From: Thiohalobacter sp.
GTDB lineage: Bacteria; Pseudomonadota; Gammaproteobacteria; DSM-19610
NCBI GenBank assembly: GCA_026984515.1
Contig: JALSRZ010000139.1
Coordinates: forward strand, 1-40,902
Direction of reading: 5' to 3'
DNA length: 40,902 bases
Part shown: positions 18,149 to 38,978 of the stretch, in pieces
How the letters are laid out: each line of letters starts with the position of its first letter
Numbering within the stretch: position 1 is the first letter of the stretch
Notes under the pieces: model-generated
Databases searched by the model: none
The model's input: only the letters and a program-made list of their open reading frames with translations
What the model was told of the DNA's origin: nothing
Made by a program: the position numbers and the translations under genes

Positions 18149-18332
18149 TTAGCCCGCATTTCTCACCGGGTTCCGTAACGAGGCGGTGGCAGGTCGTGTG
18201 ATAAGCGGCATTCGCGACCGAGGGCCGCGCAGGCATAGTCGACACTATGTCGAGCAGCCCGACCGAGTGAACGCCGCTTAGCGCGCGGCATGACGCCGCC
18301 GCAGCAGGAAGTCGGTGACAAATGCGGGTTAG
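18149..18332 (+). mobile_element. MITE copy A (176 bp plus 4-bp TTAG target duplication)
   Basis: The element proper spans 18153-18328, starting CCCGCATTTCTCACCG and ending with its near inverse (CGGTGACAAATGCGGG). It is flanked by direct repeats TTAG at 18149-18152 and 18329-18332, a target-site duplication. An inner inverted repeat (TAAGCGGC-TTC and its complement near 18271-18282) and a central SalI-like palindrome GTCGAC let the whole fold into one long hairpin. It has no transposase; the open frame at 18163-18426 is not a credible gene. It matches copy B at 28368-28551 in the reverse orientation with seven differences over 184 bases. The YTAG duplication fits IS5-type transposases acting in trans. 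Confidence 0.88.
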
Positions 18333-25127: not shown

Positions 25128-27458
25128 ATGTCCCAATCATTGGCCGAATGGCTGGTGCGCTGGCGCTGGCTGTGTGTTGTGCTGGTGCTGTGCTTTGTGG
25201 CTTTTGCCGCCAGCGGCAATCGCCTGCTGGGTTTTTCCAACGATTACCGGGTTTTCTTCAGTGCGGAAAACCCGCAATTGGTCGCCTTTGAAAACCTGCA
25301 GAATACCTATACCAAGTCGGACAACGTCCTGTTTGTGCTGGCGCCCGCGGACGGCAATGTCTTCACCCCGCATACGCTGGAAGCCGTCGAATGGCTGACG
25401 AAACAGGCTTGGCAGATCCCCTATTCCATCCGTGTCGATTCAGTGACCAATTTCCAGCATACCCGCGCGGAAGGCGATGACCTGATCGTCGAAGACCTGG
25501 TCACACAGGCGGGCAGTCTGGAGCCCGATGAGCTGGACTATATACGCAAGACAGCCATCAACGAACCGCTGCTGGTCAACCGTATCGTTTCTCCCGGCGG
25601 GCACGTCACCGCGGTGAATGTCATCATCCAGCTGCCTGGCATCCACCCGGCCGCAGAAGTACCGGAAGTGGTCCGCTTCTCCCGTGACCTGGCCGGCCAG
25701 CTGAGCGAACGCTACCCGGACCTGGAAGTACACCTGACCGGCATCGTGCTGCTGAATAACGCCTTTTCGGAAATGTCGATGCGGGACATGCAGACGCTGG
25801 TACCGATCATGTTCTTCATCATCATCCTGGTAATGGCGTTCCTGATACGTTCGGTATGGGGAACGCTGGCCACCTTGCTGGTGATTGTTCTTTCCATCGT
25901 TACAGCGATCGGCATGGCGGGTTGGCTGGGTATCCAGCTCACACCGCCATCGGCCAGCGCACCAACCATGATCATGACACTTGCCGTCGCAGACTGCGTG
26001 CACCTGCTGGTGACCTTCCTGCAGCAACTGAGGCAGGTGGATTCGAAAACCGCTGCCATGACGGAGAGCCTGCGCCTCAACCTGCAACCGATATTCCTGA
26101 CCAGTATCACCACGGCGATCGGTTTCATGTCCATGAATTTCAGCGATGCACCACCATTCCGTGACCTGGGCAATATCGTCGCTATTGGTGTCGTGGCCTC
26201 CTTTTTCTATTGCATTGGCCTGTTACCGGCGCTCATGCAGCTGTTCCCGGTCAGGGTAAAAGCGGCGCGCAACCAGTCGGTAGCGGGTATGGATGCACTG
26301 GCCGGCTTTGTTATCAATTACCGTAAGCCGGTGCTGTGGGGCATGTCTCTGCTGGTCGTTACCCTGGTGGCCTTTGTGCCGACCAACGAACTCAATGATG
26401 AGTTCGTCAAATACTTCGATGAAGAGGTTCCGTTCCGGATCGACACCGATTTCACCACGGACAACCTGACCGGCCTGTACAATATCTCCTATTCGCTGGA
26501 ATCCGGCAGCCCGGGCGGTATCAGTGAACCGGCATTTCTGAACAAGCTGGAAGAATTTGCGCGCTGGTACCGGCAACAGCCCGAGGTCATGCACGTCAGC
26601 ACCCTGTCTGACACCATGAAAAGGCTCAACAGGAACCTGCACGGCGATGATCCCGCCTGGTACCGGATACCGGATGAACGTAACCTGGCGGCACAGTACC
26701 TGCTGCTGTACGAAATGTCGCTGCCTTATGGACTGGATCTGAATAACCAGATCAACGTCGACAAGTCCGCGACCAAGCTGGACGTGTCGATACAGAGCCT
26801 CTCCAGCAACCAGACCATTGCGCTGGAGGAAAGGGCCCGGCACTGGCTGGCTGAACATGCACCGGCATCCATGCAGGCGCATGGTGCCAGTCCTTCGGTA
26901 ATGTTCGCGCACATCGGGGCACGCAATATACGCAGTATGCTCACCGGCACTACGCTTGCGCTGGTACTCATATCGTTTATCCTGATATTTGCCCTGCGTT
27001 CGCTGCGTATCGGCCTGATCAGTCTTATTCCCAACCTGGTGCCGGCCGGCATGGCCTTCGGTCTCTGGGGGCTGCTGGTCGGTGAGGTTGGCCTGGCCCT
27101 GTCGGTGGTAACCGGGATGACGCTGGGTATCGTGGTTGACGATACGGTGCATTTTCTCAGCAAGTACCTGCGTGCCCGCCGGGAAGACGGGCTGTCGTCC
27201 CCGGATGCTGTACGCTATGCATTTCACAACGTGGGAACAGCGCTGTGGATCACAACGCTGATATTAATAGCCGGCTTCCTGGTGCTCACCCAGTCCCCCT
27301 TCAAGCTGAACTCCGGCATGGGACTCCTGACCGCGATCACCATCGGACTGGCGCTGCTGGCCGATTTCCTGTTGCTACCAACCCTGTTAATGACCCTGGA
27401 TAAAAAGGAATATGATGCGAATCCTCTGGTTACTGATCCTGTCAAGTCTTCCCCTTAG
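25128..27458 (+). CDS. RND/MMPL-family transporter
   Basis: This 776-residue inner-membrane protein is made of two similar halves: one helix at about 12-30, a large periplasmic loop (about 31-223), and then five helices. The second half repeats this with a loop at about 410-600. The conserved polar residues of helix 4 are seen in LAVADCVHLLVTF (about 284) and VVDDTVHFLSKYL (about 668). This size and layout match the MMPL/HpnN-like exporters that move lipids or hydrophobic compounds rather than the tripartite AcrB pumps (about 1030 residues). No membrane-fusion gene is nearby. A LolA-like gene overlaps its 3' end by 47 bases, suggesting lipid transfer across the periplasm. Confidence 0.92.
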   Translation: MSQSLAEWLVRWRWLCVVLVLCFVAFAASGNRLLGFSNDYRVFFSAENPQLVAFENLQNTYTKSDNVLFVLAPADGNVFTPHTLEAVEWLTKQAWQIPYSIRVDSVTNFQHTRAEGDDLIVEDLVTQAGSLEPDELDYIRKTAINEPLLVNRIVSPGGHVTAVNVIIQLPGIHPAAEVPEVVRFSRDLAGQLSERYPDLEVHLTGIVLLNNAFSEMSMRDMQTLVPIMFFIIILVMAFLIRSVWGTLATLLVIVLSIVTAIGMAGWLGIQLTPPSASAPTMIMTLAVADCVHLLVTFLQQLRQVDSKTAAMTESLRLNLQPIFLTSITTAIGFMSMNFSDAPPFRDLGNIVAIGVVASFFYCIGLLPALMQLFPVRVKAARNQSVAGMDALAGFVINYRKPVLWGMSLLVVTLVAFVPTNELNDEFVKYFDEEVPFRIDTDFTTDNLTGLYNISYSLESGSPGGISEPAFLNKLEEFARWYRQQPEVMHVSTLSDTMKRLNRNLHGDDPAWYRIPDERNLAAQYLLLYEMSLPYGLDLNNQINVDKSATKLDVSIQSLSSNQTIALEERARHWLAEHAPASMQAHGASPSVMFAHIGARNIRSMLTGTTLALVLISFILIFALRSLRIGLISLIPNLVPAGMAFGLWGLLVGEVGLALSVVTGMTLGIVVDDTVHFLSKYLRARREDGLSSPDAVRYAFHNVGTALWITTLILIAGFLVLTQSPFKLNSGMGLLTAITIGLALLADFLLLPTLLMTLDKKEYDANPLVTDPVKSSP

Positions 27459-28191: not shown

Positions 28192-28367
28192 TACAGCTGC
28201 ACGGGGGTGCGATGCAGCGCGCCCGGAAAATATTCCCTGAAACCTGAAAAAAACGGGATAAATCAGAAGCTTCAGACGTTCACCCGCGAGCCGATATGGT
28301 AAGCAGACCGGGTTCGAAAACCGGCTTGCTCGATCCTGTTCCAGTGGGGTGGATAAAATGAAGATAG
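28192..28367. other. Intergenic stretch before MITE copy B
   Basis: Together with the adjoining mobile element this makes a 349-base gap between the LolA-like gene and the chosen Sel1 start. I see no gene here. An AT-richer patch with GAAAAAAACGGGATAAATC (about 28246-28264) could hold a promoter for the Sel1 gene. GTG at 28349 and ATG at 28358 are in frame with that gene and would read straight through the element. Confidence 0.4.
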
Positions 28368-28551
28368 CTAGCCCGCATTTCTCACCGACTTCCTGCTGCG
28401 GCGGTGTCATGCCGCGCGCTAAGCGGCGTTCACTCGGTCGGGCTGCTCGACATAGTGTCGACTATGCCTGCGCGGCCCTCGGTCGCGAACGCCGCTTATC
28501 ACACGACCTGCCACCGCCTCGCTACGGAACCCGGGGAGAAATGCGGGCTAG
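28368..28551 (-). mobile_element. MITE copy B (176 bp plus CTAG target duplication)
   Basis: The element proper spans 28372-28547 and is flanked by CTAG at 28368-28371 and 28548-28551. The terminal inverted repeats are CCCGCATTTCTCaCCG and its complement. Read on the minus strand it matches copy A with seven differences over 184 bases, so the two full copies are in opposite orientations about 10 kb apart. Its right end carries GGGGAGAAATGCGGG pointing outward, which gives the Sel1 gene its most plausible start codon (28541). No coding capacity of its own is credible. Confidence 0.88.
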
Positions 28552-29848
28552 CTTGCGGGGATGTTTGCTGGCGTGTGCAGACACGCGGATTCCGTTTTTT
28601 TTGCTTCTCCTGTGTTGCTTGCAGGCACCGGCTTTTTCCATGGAAACCTGGCAGGAACTGCTGGAAGAACAGCTGGCAGAAGCCAGAGGGGGTGATACCG
28701 AAGCCCAGTACGGTGTTGGTATCAAGTACCTGAACGGGCAGGGCGTCGAACAGGACCGTGCAGAAGCCAGGCGCTGGCTGCAACTGGCCGCCGATGCCGG
28801 GCACGAAGCCGCAAAGGATAAACTGAAACGCCTGCAGGGCCAGCAGCAGTCATTTGAAGCCATGCTCGCCAGGGCAAAGGCCGGCGCTACCGATGCTCAG
28901 TGCCAGGTGGGTCTCATGTACCTGAAAGGCAAGGGCGTCGACCGGGATGGCAACCAGGCGCGCAACTGGATCAGCAAGGCCGCCAAACAGGGTAACGACA
29001 AGGCGATTACCCGGCTGGGCATTCTGTATTACAAGGGTGAAGGCGGACCACCGGATTACAGTCGCGCGCTCGAACTGTTCAACAGCGTTAGCCAGGGCAG
29101 TGTCCTCGCCCAGTATTATCTCGGTGAAATGTACGCGCAGGGCAAGGGCGTGGAGCGGAACCATGCCACGGCCATCGAGTGGTACCGGAAAGCCGCTGAC
29201 GGCGGCTTCAAGCGTGCCGGCGGCAAAATCATCAACATGGAAGAAGAAATCAGGATGGCGGAACGCCGCAAGCTCAACATGGCGCGCAAAAAGCAATCCA
29301 TCGAAGCGGCCGAAGCGCGCCTGGCGGCCGAGCAACAGCAGGTGGAAGCGGCCCGCGTTGCCGATGCAGGGAAAAGGGCAGCCATACACCGTGAAAAGGC
29401 GATCACCAGGAAGGTAACGGTAAAAAAACGTGGGCAGGATGATCCGCTGGAAAAACTGGCCGGCAAGCAGTGGGGACGTAACCGGAAACAGGTGGAATAC
29501 CTGCCTTCGAAAGTCACTGACTGTGAAATGGAAAAGCGGAAACTGGTTTGTTTCAGCGGTCTCCTGACACGTACCAGTGGTACGAATACGGTGCACTACC
29601 GGGTCAAATCGGAAGTTACCTCAGCGGATGGCGTCTTTTATATCACCTACCGTAACCTGGTGGTGGACGTGATCAGCATTGAAAATGACGAAGAAGAAGT
29701 GATCGGCTACGGTGATGAAACCAACAAGGGTTTCCACATAAAGACCGGGTGGACGCAGGACCACAAGGTTGAATGCCGGCCAAACCAGGGTGATAAACTG
29801 GACTGTATAAAGGACCAGACGCACAAAATGGTGATTGCCGGTAAATAA
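28541..29848 (+). CDS. Exported Sel1-repeat protein with Cys-containing C-terminal domain
   Basis: This is a 435-residue protein from the ATG at 28541. A signal peptide ends near residue 33 (FFLLLLCCLQAPAFS). Then come about four Sel1-type repeats (about 49-210), for example AQYGVGIKYLNGQGVEQD, AQCQVGLMYLKGKGVDRD and AQYYLGEMYAQGKGVERN. A long charged helix rich in Ala, Glu, Lys and Arg (about 215-280, likely coiled coil) leads to a C-terminal domain with four Cys (DCEME, VCFSG, VECRP, LDCIK) that I do not recognise. Sel1 proteins act as scaffolds in the periplasm. The start codon lies inside MITE copy B. A longer frame from 28349 or 28358 would translate the element and hide the signal peptide. 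A hairpin directly follows the stop. Confidence 0.82.
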   Translation: MRASLRGCLLACADTRIPFFLLLLCCLQAPAFSMETWQELLEEQLAEARGGDTEAQYGVGIKYLNGQGVEQDRAEARRWLQLAADAGHEAAKDKLKRLQGQQQSFEAMLARAKAGATDAQCQVGLMYLKGKGVDRDGNQARNWISKAAKQGNDKAITRLGILYYKGEGGPPDYSRALELFNSVSQGSVLAQYYLGEMYAQGKGVERNHATAIEWYRKAADGGFKRAGGKIINMEEEIRMAERRKLNMARKKQSIEAAEARLAAEQQQVEAARVADAGKRAAIHREKAITRKVTVKKRGQDDPLEKLAGKQWGRNRKQVEYLPSKVTDCEMEKRKLVCFSGLLTRTSGTNTVHYRVKSEVTSADGVFYITYRNLVVDVISIENDEEEVIGYGDETNKGFHIKTGWTQDHKVECRPNQGDKLDCIKDQTHKMVIAGK

Positions 29849-29873
29849 GCCAGGGAACCTCTGATTCCCTGGC
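29849..29873 (+). terminator. Hairpin directly after the Sel1 gene
   Basis: GCCAGGGAA-cctctga-TTCCCTGGC is a perfect nine-pair stem with a seven-base loop, beginning on the base after the stop codon. There is no T tract, so it may stabilise the transcript end or act as a weak terminator. Its last base touches MITE copy C. Confidence 0.55.
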
Positions 29874-29946
29874 CCGCATCCCCCCCGACTTCCTGCGGCG
29901 GCGTCATGCCACTTCGCTACGGAACCCGGTGAGAACTGCGGGCTAG
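29869..29946 (-). mobile_element. MITE copy C (70 bp, internally deleted)
   Basis: Positions 29873-29942 carry both ends of the element seen at 18153 and 28372, in the same orientation as copy B, but about 106 inner bases are missing. The junction lies in a shared GCCAC. Flanks are CTGG on the left and CTAG on the right, a target duplication with one change. The right CTAG contains, on the minus strand, the TAG stop of the DsrE-fold gene. Both ends remain, so it could in principle still move. Confidence 0.82.
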
Positions 29947-30446
29947 CGGATTTCCTCGATGGATAGCTTCTTTTCCATCACGATCGGGCGGATCACCGCA
30001 TACCCCTGCAACTGCCAGTGGGCAAGTTCAGTGATGGCAGAAGGCGCGACCTTGATAAAGTCCTGGAAATCTTCCGCCCGGTAACCATAGTCCTCTGCCG
30101 CCAGTCCACACACGCGAAATTCGACACCCAGTTCCGCGTAATAGCGCATTCTCTCGACTGCGTCCCGGTATTTTTCATAGTTATGGCGTGCCACGGTCAC
30201 GATCTCTGTACCGTGTATGATGACCTTCAGGTCCAGGAATTCCGGCGCCATGTCGTAGGGCGAATCCATCAGGGGGTTGATCAGCGAGCGTATCCAGTAC
30301 AGCGCAGAATTGATTTTCTGTGGATCGTCGAGATAGAAATCAAATACGACCTTCTGCTCCGTGTACGGGGTTTGCACGAAATCGGCACCCTTGTCGGCGT
30401 ACACAAGCGGCGCAAGTAACAGCATCAGCAGCGGCAGTTTTCTCAT
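29943..30446 (-). CDS. Exported DsrE-fold protein
   Basis: This 167-residue protein has a clear signal peptide (RKLPLLMLLLAPLVYA, cleavage near 17) followed by a DsrE/DsrF-type fold: VVFDFYLDDPQKINSALYWI, then LKVIIHGTEIVTVARHNYEK and VEFRVCGLAAEDYGY. Cys in FRVCGLA sits where DsrE-family proteins often carry a reactive thiol. The periplasmic location makes a role in sulfur-compound or thiol handling possible but unproven. I prefer the ATG at 30446 over GTG at 30452. The stop TAG lies in the CTAG flank of MITE copy C. It is 83 bases after the DAHP synthase gene on the same strand. Confidence 0.82.
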   Translation of the reverse strand: MRKLPLLMLLLAPLVYADKGADFVQTPYTEQKVVFDFYLDDPQKINSALYWIRSLINPLMDSPYDMAPEFLDLKVIIHGTEIVTVARHNYEKYRDAVERMRYYAELGVEFRVCGLAAEDYGYRAEDFQDFIKVAPSAITELAHWQLQGYAVIRPIVMEKKLSIEEIR

Positions 30447-30529
30447 GTGCACAGGTACCGGTACAGGCAGGTACTCCGAGTATAGACGAGAATCGCACCC
30501 GCAACGCCGATACCACCCGGACTCTGTGC

Positions 30530-38021: not shown

Positions 38022-38200
38022 ATCTGGAGGCCAAGCATACCAGATTGCACCTCTTCAGCCAGAAATAAGCCTGGCGGTATTTGCTACAGCAGCGGCTGTC
38101 TCAGGCGGCCTGACATCGCATCCATCGTCACAGGAACGCCGGCCCCGGCGCAAAGGTCCAACCTTGCTTTCGCGGTCAGGGGACCGAGACTGCCGGACCG

Positions 38201-38226
38201 GGAAGTCGGTGAGAAATGCGGGCTAG
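38201..38226 (-). mobile_element. MITE remnant D (solo end)
   Basis: Twenty-six bases (GGAAGTCGGTGAGAAATGCG and the following GGCTAG) match the inner-to-outer end of copies A and B exactly. I cannot find the opposite end within the 201-base gap, so this is a decayed or recombined copy. The final CTAG (38223-38226) supplies, on the minus strand, the TAG stop of the barrel gene. Confidence 0.75.
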
Positions 38227-38978
38227 AAGTGCAGGTAGAGTCCGGCATACGGCCCGTCGAACTCGACGTCGGCGAAGGAATCGTCGAAGTCATCCAGGTC
38301 GAGTTTGATTTTGCGGTAACCGATATCCGCACCCACGAACCAGGGCGAGGTATAGGTGACGCGCAGGCTGTAATCGTAGAACGAGCTGCCCTTGTACTTG
38401 ATATAGGATCCGTCCGCACTGATACCCAGGCCGGTCAATGGAAGATCGACCCCGACACCGGCATAAGCCATCGGCACCCAGCCGGACACGTTGGCGGTCT
38501 GCGTCCCCGAAACGGCGCCGGTGATACGCGCCTTGCTGTCGATATACTTGGCATTGAGACCGAGGTCGATACTGGCGACGGTATCCAGCGGGCTGTAATA
38601 CAGAGTGATATCGGTCTGGTCGAGCTGCACCTTGCTGCTGACATTTTCATTGAACAGGAAGGTAGTACCACCGTAGACGACCGTTTTGCTCAGGGTGCCG
38701 TTGGCATTCTCGTCCAGGTCGGTGCGGCTGATGCGGATATTCGGCAGAAAGGGTACCGGGTGTTCCAGCCCGATATAGTAATAACCCAGGTTGCCGTTGT
38801 CGTAGCCCAGGTCCCGGTTGACGTCGATATCGTTGGCGGAGTCCCTGGTCTGGTAGCGTGCCGTGCCGCTGATGTCGTAACGCCAGTAATTCGCACCGAC
38901 TGTCACACCCAGCAGGTCAGCACCCGCGGCTGCCGGCAGCAGGCAGGTCGTCAGAACAAGAATGTGTACGTGTCGCAT
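38223..38978 (-). CDS. Outer-membrane beta-barrel protein
   Basis: This 251-residue protein has a signal peptide (HILVLTTCLLPAAAGA, cleavage after about 20) and alternating-residue strands throughout, ending in YAGLYLHF with the C-terminal Phe needed for barrel assembly. It begins DLLGVTVGANYWRYDISGTA, which recalls the TIGR04219-type barrel family (from memory, not confirmed). Function unknown. GGAGG lies 8 bases before the ATG at 38978, which fixes this start against the longer frame to 39086. The stop codon is in the CTAG flank of MITE remnant D, with the protein's C-terminus intact. It is divergent from comEC (115 bases). Confidence 0.87.
   Translation of the reverse strand: MRHVHILVLTTCLLPAAAGADLLGVTVGANYWRYDISGTARYQTRDSANDIDVNRDLGYDNGNLGYYYIGLEHPVPFLPNIRISRTDLDENANGTLSKTVVYGGTTFLFNENVSSKVQLDQTDITLYYSPLDTVASIDLGLNAKYIDSKARITGAVSGTQTANVSGWVPMAYAGVGVDLPLTGLGISADGSYIKYKGSSFYDYSLRVTYTSPWFVGADIGYRKIKLDLDDFDDSFADVEFDGPYAGLYLHF

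Follow-up and report, generated by a model that had tools for sequence, protein, structure and literature searches.

In-frame fusions of MITEs with genes are already well known from the Rickettsia palindromic elements (RPEs), the enterobacterial RU repeats, and the QMITEs of Coxiella, and fusion at the 5' end of genes is known from MITEAba12 of Acinetobacter. In the excerpted account of MITEAba12 that serves for comparison here (PMC6382973), adjacent genes at three places take their first residues (MQQS) from an outward-reading terminal repeat of this 113-bp element, and the MITE that we describe, with a core of 176 bp, resembles it in bearing start codons near its ends. That excerpt reports no stop-then-start end for MITEAba12, and the present MITE differs further in that what it replaced and what it left in place can be read exactly from empty sites in a sister species. 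RPEs (PMC10969869) are palindromes of about 150 bp that lie in frame within genes, to which they add residues, and one copy of our MITE (copy B) is like them; RPEs, however, often fuse, whereas this MITE is clearly fused from a native start in only 1 of 39 full copies. The Coxiella elements QMITE1 and QMITE2 (PMC5896051) end on or supply the stop codons of genes, as happens here, but for genes of known function their description records no 5'-end effect, whereas the present MITE involves genes at the 5' end as well as at the 3' end. RU-1, RU-2, and RU-3 (PMC2759123) are likewise small and mobile and, again as here, have ORFs that are fused to neighbors, but they are different elements, and the fusions described for them join an ORF of the repeat itself to ORFs of the host, with no comparison of the start against an empty site. 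In a small set of open-access literature, no MITE was described whose end combines a stop with a start.

The stretch of DNA analyzed here (40,902 nucleotides; hereafter, the window) belongs to contig C139 in a draft genome (3.37 Mb in 189 contigs) of Thiohalobacter sp. It includes a Sel1 gene whose named relatives are found in Thiogranum-type Gammaproteobacteria MAGs and which is preceded by a LolA-like gene (PF17131) and by gene 25128-27458, whose sequence we interpret as that of an MMPL-type transporter.

The MITE family and its ends

The MITE has a near-palindromic core of 176 bp, and the outermost 28 nt of its ends are 89% complementary. Among the 47 paired copies in the stretches fetched, 39 are full copies measuring exactly 182 bp from TAG to CTA, which corresponds to the 176-bp core inside CTAG duplications. 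A census of ends, whose scope is the listed copies only, yielded 152 across the 92 stretches examined; matches to the ends number 194 across the genome, and recognizable ends in this genome exceed 150. The flanks of 141 ends read CTAG in 112 cases, TTAG in 7, and CTAA in 6, which describes a 4-bp YTAR target; YTAR targets are used by IS5. Duplication of the 4-bp target is seen at a nirE/nirC-like locus, where the nearest relative, genome G007, has ATGC-CTAG-AACG and our genome has ATGC-CTAG-[MITE]-CTAG-AACA. Being short, with terminal inverted repeats (TIRs), dispersed in many uniform copies, flanked by a target duplication, and devoid of a transposase gene of its own (its sole ORFs are the open frames of the 176-bp palindrome), the element has the properties of a MITE. 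A search of the genome for a mobilizing transposase with PF01609 (DDE_Tnp_1) and PF05598 (DUF772) gave no match, although the MITE is abundant and young, and the mobilizer may have been lost. Similarly, a search for a full-length IS with the same ends found no pair of ends at IS spacing besides neighboring copies, in an assembly that breaks at the element.

The preliminary description had ascribed an outward-facing, ATG-like end to all copies. Such a family of ends is real, but "all" is too strong: the ATG is kept in 133 of 152 ends, GGTGAG begins 139 of the 152, and the GGGGAG of copy B is uncommon, occurring in 4 of 74 right ends and in none of 77 left ends. Several MITE copies in G007 carry AGG in place of ATG, so the ATG itself is not essential; L174 and L178 of that genome are full copies with AGG at both ends. 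Copies in genome G002 have ends that match the consensus at 18 to 20 of 21 bases and an interior that is down to 61 to 76%, and because these ends have stayed conserved while the interior decayed, the ATG in the ends is, on sequence comparison, best explained as part of a sequence needed for mobility.

Besides copy B, the window contains the following copies.

18150-18331, minus strand: copy A, full length
29866-29948 (limits approximate), plus strand: copy C, a short, internally deleted relative directly 3' of the Sel1 gene

The right end of copy C falls on the native TAG stop of a minus-strand gene (29943-30452), where G007 has a bare CTAG. A single decayed end, copy D (38186-38227), lies at the stop of a minus-strand gene whose product ends in ...GPYAGLYLHF and is outer-membrane-protein-like. 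Very short forms, with little beyond the two terminal repeats, also occur, of 53 bp at L085:1801-1853 and L101:1765-1817 and of about 72 bp at G007:C101:559-630 and G007:C241:9714-9785.

Insertion of copy B into the Sel1 gene

The 5' region of the Sel1 gene, into which copy B has inserted, comprises the following features.

28346-28352, plus strand: GGGGTGG, Shine-Dalgarno (SD)-like site serving the native start, unchanged in the G007 orthologue and with the best spacing-aware anti-SD pairing among the candidate starts
28349, plus strand: GTG, 3 codons upstream of ATG 28358, a weaker alternative start
28358-28360, plus strand: native ATG start of the Sel1 gene, matched in alignment by the start of L010/L125, the empty-site orthologue
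28358-29848, plus strand: fused ORF of 496 aa, a stop-free frame that begins at the native start, crosses the MITE, and continues into the Sel1 gene
28368-28371, plus strand: left CTAG target duplication
28372-28547, plus strand: copy B of the MITE (176 bp), which shares 96-99% identity with about 40 other full copies and is absent from the orthologue
28535-28537, plus strand: GGA in copy B, at the position of an in-frame stop (TGA) in the consensus of 39 full copies
28541-28543, plus strand: ATG in the right terminal repeat, a candidate secondary start
28541-29848, plus strand: ORF of 435 aa from the TIR ATG, with the signal peptide first and four Sel1 repeats (PF08238, E 1.2e-39)
28548-28551, plus strand: right CTAG target duplication

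The closest orthologue (L010/L125, genome G007) is 92% identical and lacks the MITE: its empty site reads GGGGTGGACAAAATGAAGATTCGTAACTTGCGGGG, and the window reads GGGGTGGATAAAATGAAGATAGCTAGCCCGC, followed by the MITE and then GCGGGCTAGCTTGCGGGG. Since the start of this orthologue aligns with ATG 28358, that codon is the native start. Insertion occurred after codon 3, for a net gain of exactly 180 bp (60 codons) that keeps the frame, and the empty site shows that it separated the native start from the signal peptide. The ATG at 28541-28543, which follows CCCGGGGAGAA, does lie inside the right TIR of copy B, as first described, and comparison of MRASLRGCLLACADTRIPF in the window with MKIRNLRGYSLACAGTRIPV in G007 finds this in-frame ATG at exactly the right place, with MRAS replacing MKIRN as the N-terminal residues. 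It is also the only in-frame ATG that places the hydrophobic signal segment at the N terminus; TTG 28553 and TTG 28565 would do so as well. The further claim, that the TIR ATG had replaced the native translation start, is not supported by the alignment of orthologue N termini, in which the G007 start falls elsewhere, on 28358, an outcome that the preliminary description had itself named as refuting; both this ATG and its SD site are intact in the window, in frame and upstream of the MITE. The usability of 28541 is unaffected by this result.

Choice of the Sel1 start

Comparison of SD pairing and of the cost of opening the mRNA favors continued initiation at 28358. Spacing-aware anti-SD pairing is -7.2 at 28358 and about -2 at 28541 in copy B, the value for an unmutated TIR being -6.6; when spacing is ignored, a simple duplex calculation yields -10.3, -8.1, and -9.2, respectively. 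In the predicted folding of the read-through mRNA, opening positions -14 to +4 costs 6.9 kcal/mol at 28358 versus 29.8 kcal/mol at 28541, and the cost at 28541 drops to about 10 kcal/mol with the left arm melted or absent. A search of the MITE and its region for a promoter found none above chance.

We would give about an even chance to a reading, built on the sequence and on modeled RNA structure, in which initiation continues at 28358 to yield a fused precursor and some ribosomes restart at 28541. The 176-bp nonautonomous element would have inserted at a YTAR-type target after Sel1 codon 3, with duplication of CTAG, and ribosomes would still load at 28358, the sole start with a well-spaced SD and one outside most of the hairpin. 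They would unwind the MITE during translation, and the precursor would carry about 60 additional residues ahead of the signal segment. The TIR ATG would be exposed only while the hairpin is open, acting as a secondary in-frame restart that gives the 435-aa, signal-peptide-first form. General models of RNA unfolding and reinitiation have been reviewed (PMC12548453). Against a fused precursor as the functional product, however, stand the roughly 70 residues before its hydrophobic segment, which are far beyond a normal n-region and may prevent its export, and the position of this segment at the very N terminus in all close orthologues; it is close behind the start in all more distant orthologues too. 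Because it is unusual for a signal segment to lie some 70 residues behind the N terminus, the exported form of Sel1 may well come from 28541.

The preliminary description went further, taking the TIR ATG as the working start and the native start as functionally dead. Its case is that 28541 is the only ATG leaving the signal peptide first and that the same TIR must do so at the nirC-like gene treated below, where an in-frame TGA bars read-through. At Sel1, however, the native start and its SD are intact and in frame, 28541 is buried in the predicted hairpin with its SD weakened in copy B, and the loss of a stop from copy B (see below) would be unneeded, and we consider this account somewhat unlikely. 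Initiation downstream of the MITE, at TTG 28553 or TTG 28565, is very improbable; both codons are in frame and before the signal segment, but neither has an SD at usable spacing, and the orthologue starts are not there.

Initiation at 28358 may itself be impaired, as the hairpin begins 11 nt past the native ATG and therefore inside the ribosome footprint, and opening positions -15 to +15 costs 17.6 kcal/mol at 28358 versus 12.4 in G007. The insertion might then mostly silence Sel1, with impaired native initiation, an unexported precursor, and a gene heading to decay. Copy B, with 3 differences from the consensus, is too young for decay to be visible, and the codons just after the MITE show 8.5 nonsynonymous and 1.5 synonymous differences from G007, though signal peptides vary fast. 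Set against this, the ORF is fully intact and the gene as a whole is constrained relative to G007 (dN/dS of 0.20), though most of the divergence predates the insertion, and we judge silencing to be improbable.

The lost stop in copy B

The consensus end of the family reads CGG TGA GAA ATG CGG GCT A, with an in-frame TGA two codons before the TIR ATG, so frames that pass through the MITE into the TIR ATG end two codons short of it and in-frame fusion of this MITE is rare. In the fused frame, 37 of the 39 full copies are stopped and only copy B and L105 are open, and the prior chance of a given copy being open is about 5%. The substitution T28535G, the single base by which the TIR of copy B stands out, turns the TGA of copy B into GGA, and no stop interrupts the frame from 28358 across the MITE and into Sel1. 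That the one copy in frame behind a native start has an open frame is suggestive. The argument for a selected loss of the stop is weakened by the presence of GGGGAG in other right ends (L105, L110, and L092), two of which have an intact ATG, at least L105 being unfused in this frame; since the variant occurs elsewhere, the stop-removing G28535 may have been carried in at insertion rather than selected, and because only one locus is concerned, T28535G cannot be called selection.

L105, the other open GGGGAG copy, was rejected as a second fusion, as its downstream gene is in another frame. Interpretation of T28535G as an improved ribosome site was likewise discarded, the change weakening spacing-aware pairing from -6.6 to about -2. 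A search for repeated in-frame gene insertions of the RPE kind found 2 of 39 copies open in the fused frame, and the frame that is open in 39 of 39 copies gave no clear gene fusion.

A MITE at the nirE/nirC-like junction

Among the TIR-ATG ORFs examined, a single further one runs into the beginning of a real gene, that of a nirC-like cytochrome c (PF13442) in L053; the names nirE and nirC are given from domains and neighborhood, not from curated assignment. At the native junction in G007, the end of nirE (PF00590), CGG TAT GCC TAG, overlaps the cytochrome start, ATG CCT AGA ACG. In our genome, the MITE (L053:104-432 and L075:1-141, on contigs C33 and C66) lies at the overlapping stop and start of these two genes: nirE on contig C66 keeps as its stop the TAG found in G007, with the MITE directly after, and contig C33 starts within the MITE, whose end gives ATG CGG GCT AGA ACA. 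An 80-bp overlap (one mismatch) joins C66 and C33 into a 182-bp element, a joining that we infer from synteny with G007.

The old cytochrome ATG opens a 57-codon frame that ends in UGA and is followed by GAA and then by the TIR AUG, and the nirC-like gene has no other ATG, GTG, or TTG before its mature part. The TIR ATG is, as judged from these codons, the only usable start before the cytochrome signal peptide, and the MITE appears to supply the cytochrome start while the target duplication keeps the nirE TAG. A start supplied by the TIR, as had been proposed for Sel1, thus holds at this locus. The predicted cost of opening this start is 26.3 kcal/mol, or about 11 kcal/mol with the left arm melted, and the layout is that expected of translational coupling by a leader ORF, with the leader stop close to the downstream start and predicted structure over the start.

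Chance level and genome-wide pattern

In a simulation in which ORFs represented genes and insertions fell on YTAR sites of the same DNA, 2.6 start captures were expected per 75 insertions, and 2 were seen; with no enrichment over the simulation, selection for start capture was rejected. Long ORFs from the TIR ATGs of L041, L124, L081, L100, and others were not accepted as captures, having either no Pfam match or a gene that starts far inside (in L041, the HemC domain begins only at residue 193).

At 54 of 141 ends (38%; the window and L034 to L124), an inward ORF of at least 100 codons stops exactly on the target TAG, against a baseline of 12% of YTAR sites and 19% of CTAG sites. This pattern is stronger than that of start capture. 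Removal of insertions inside genes could yield such an excess without target choice, and some of the TAG-ending ORFs may be truncated or antisense.

Discussion

Read inward, the CTAG target presents an immediate TAG stop; read outward, the end runs GG-TGA-GAA-ATG-CGGG-CTAG, with a new start 3 nt after a stop. A speculative view, which we hold to be rather doubtful, is that the MITE end forms a compact gene-boundary cassette, with a stop facing inward and a ribosome site, stop, and new start facing outward, and that the translation of neighboring genes would be preserved by leader translation and restart. If this is true, the cassette end and the net length of 180 bp would let the MITE sit between genes or at their edges, even where the partners overlap, as do nirE and nirC.

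The two loci offer base-exact examples, with sister-species empty sites, of the effect of a MITE on a translation start. In the Sel1 gene, the native start is still present and in frame, and the MITE would become an N-terminal extension; at the nirC-like gene, the TIR appears to supply the start. For the annotation of starts beside mobile repeats, the position of the signal peptide alone is not trustworthy.
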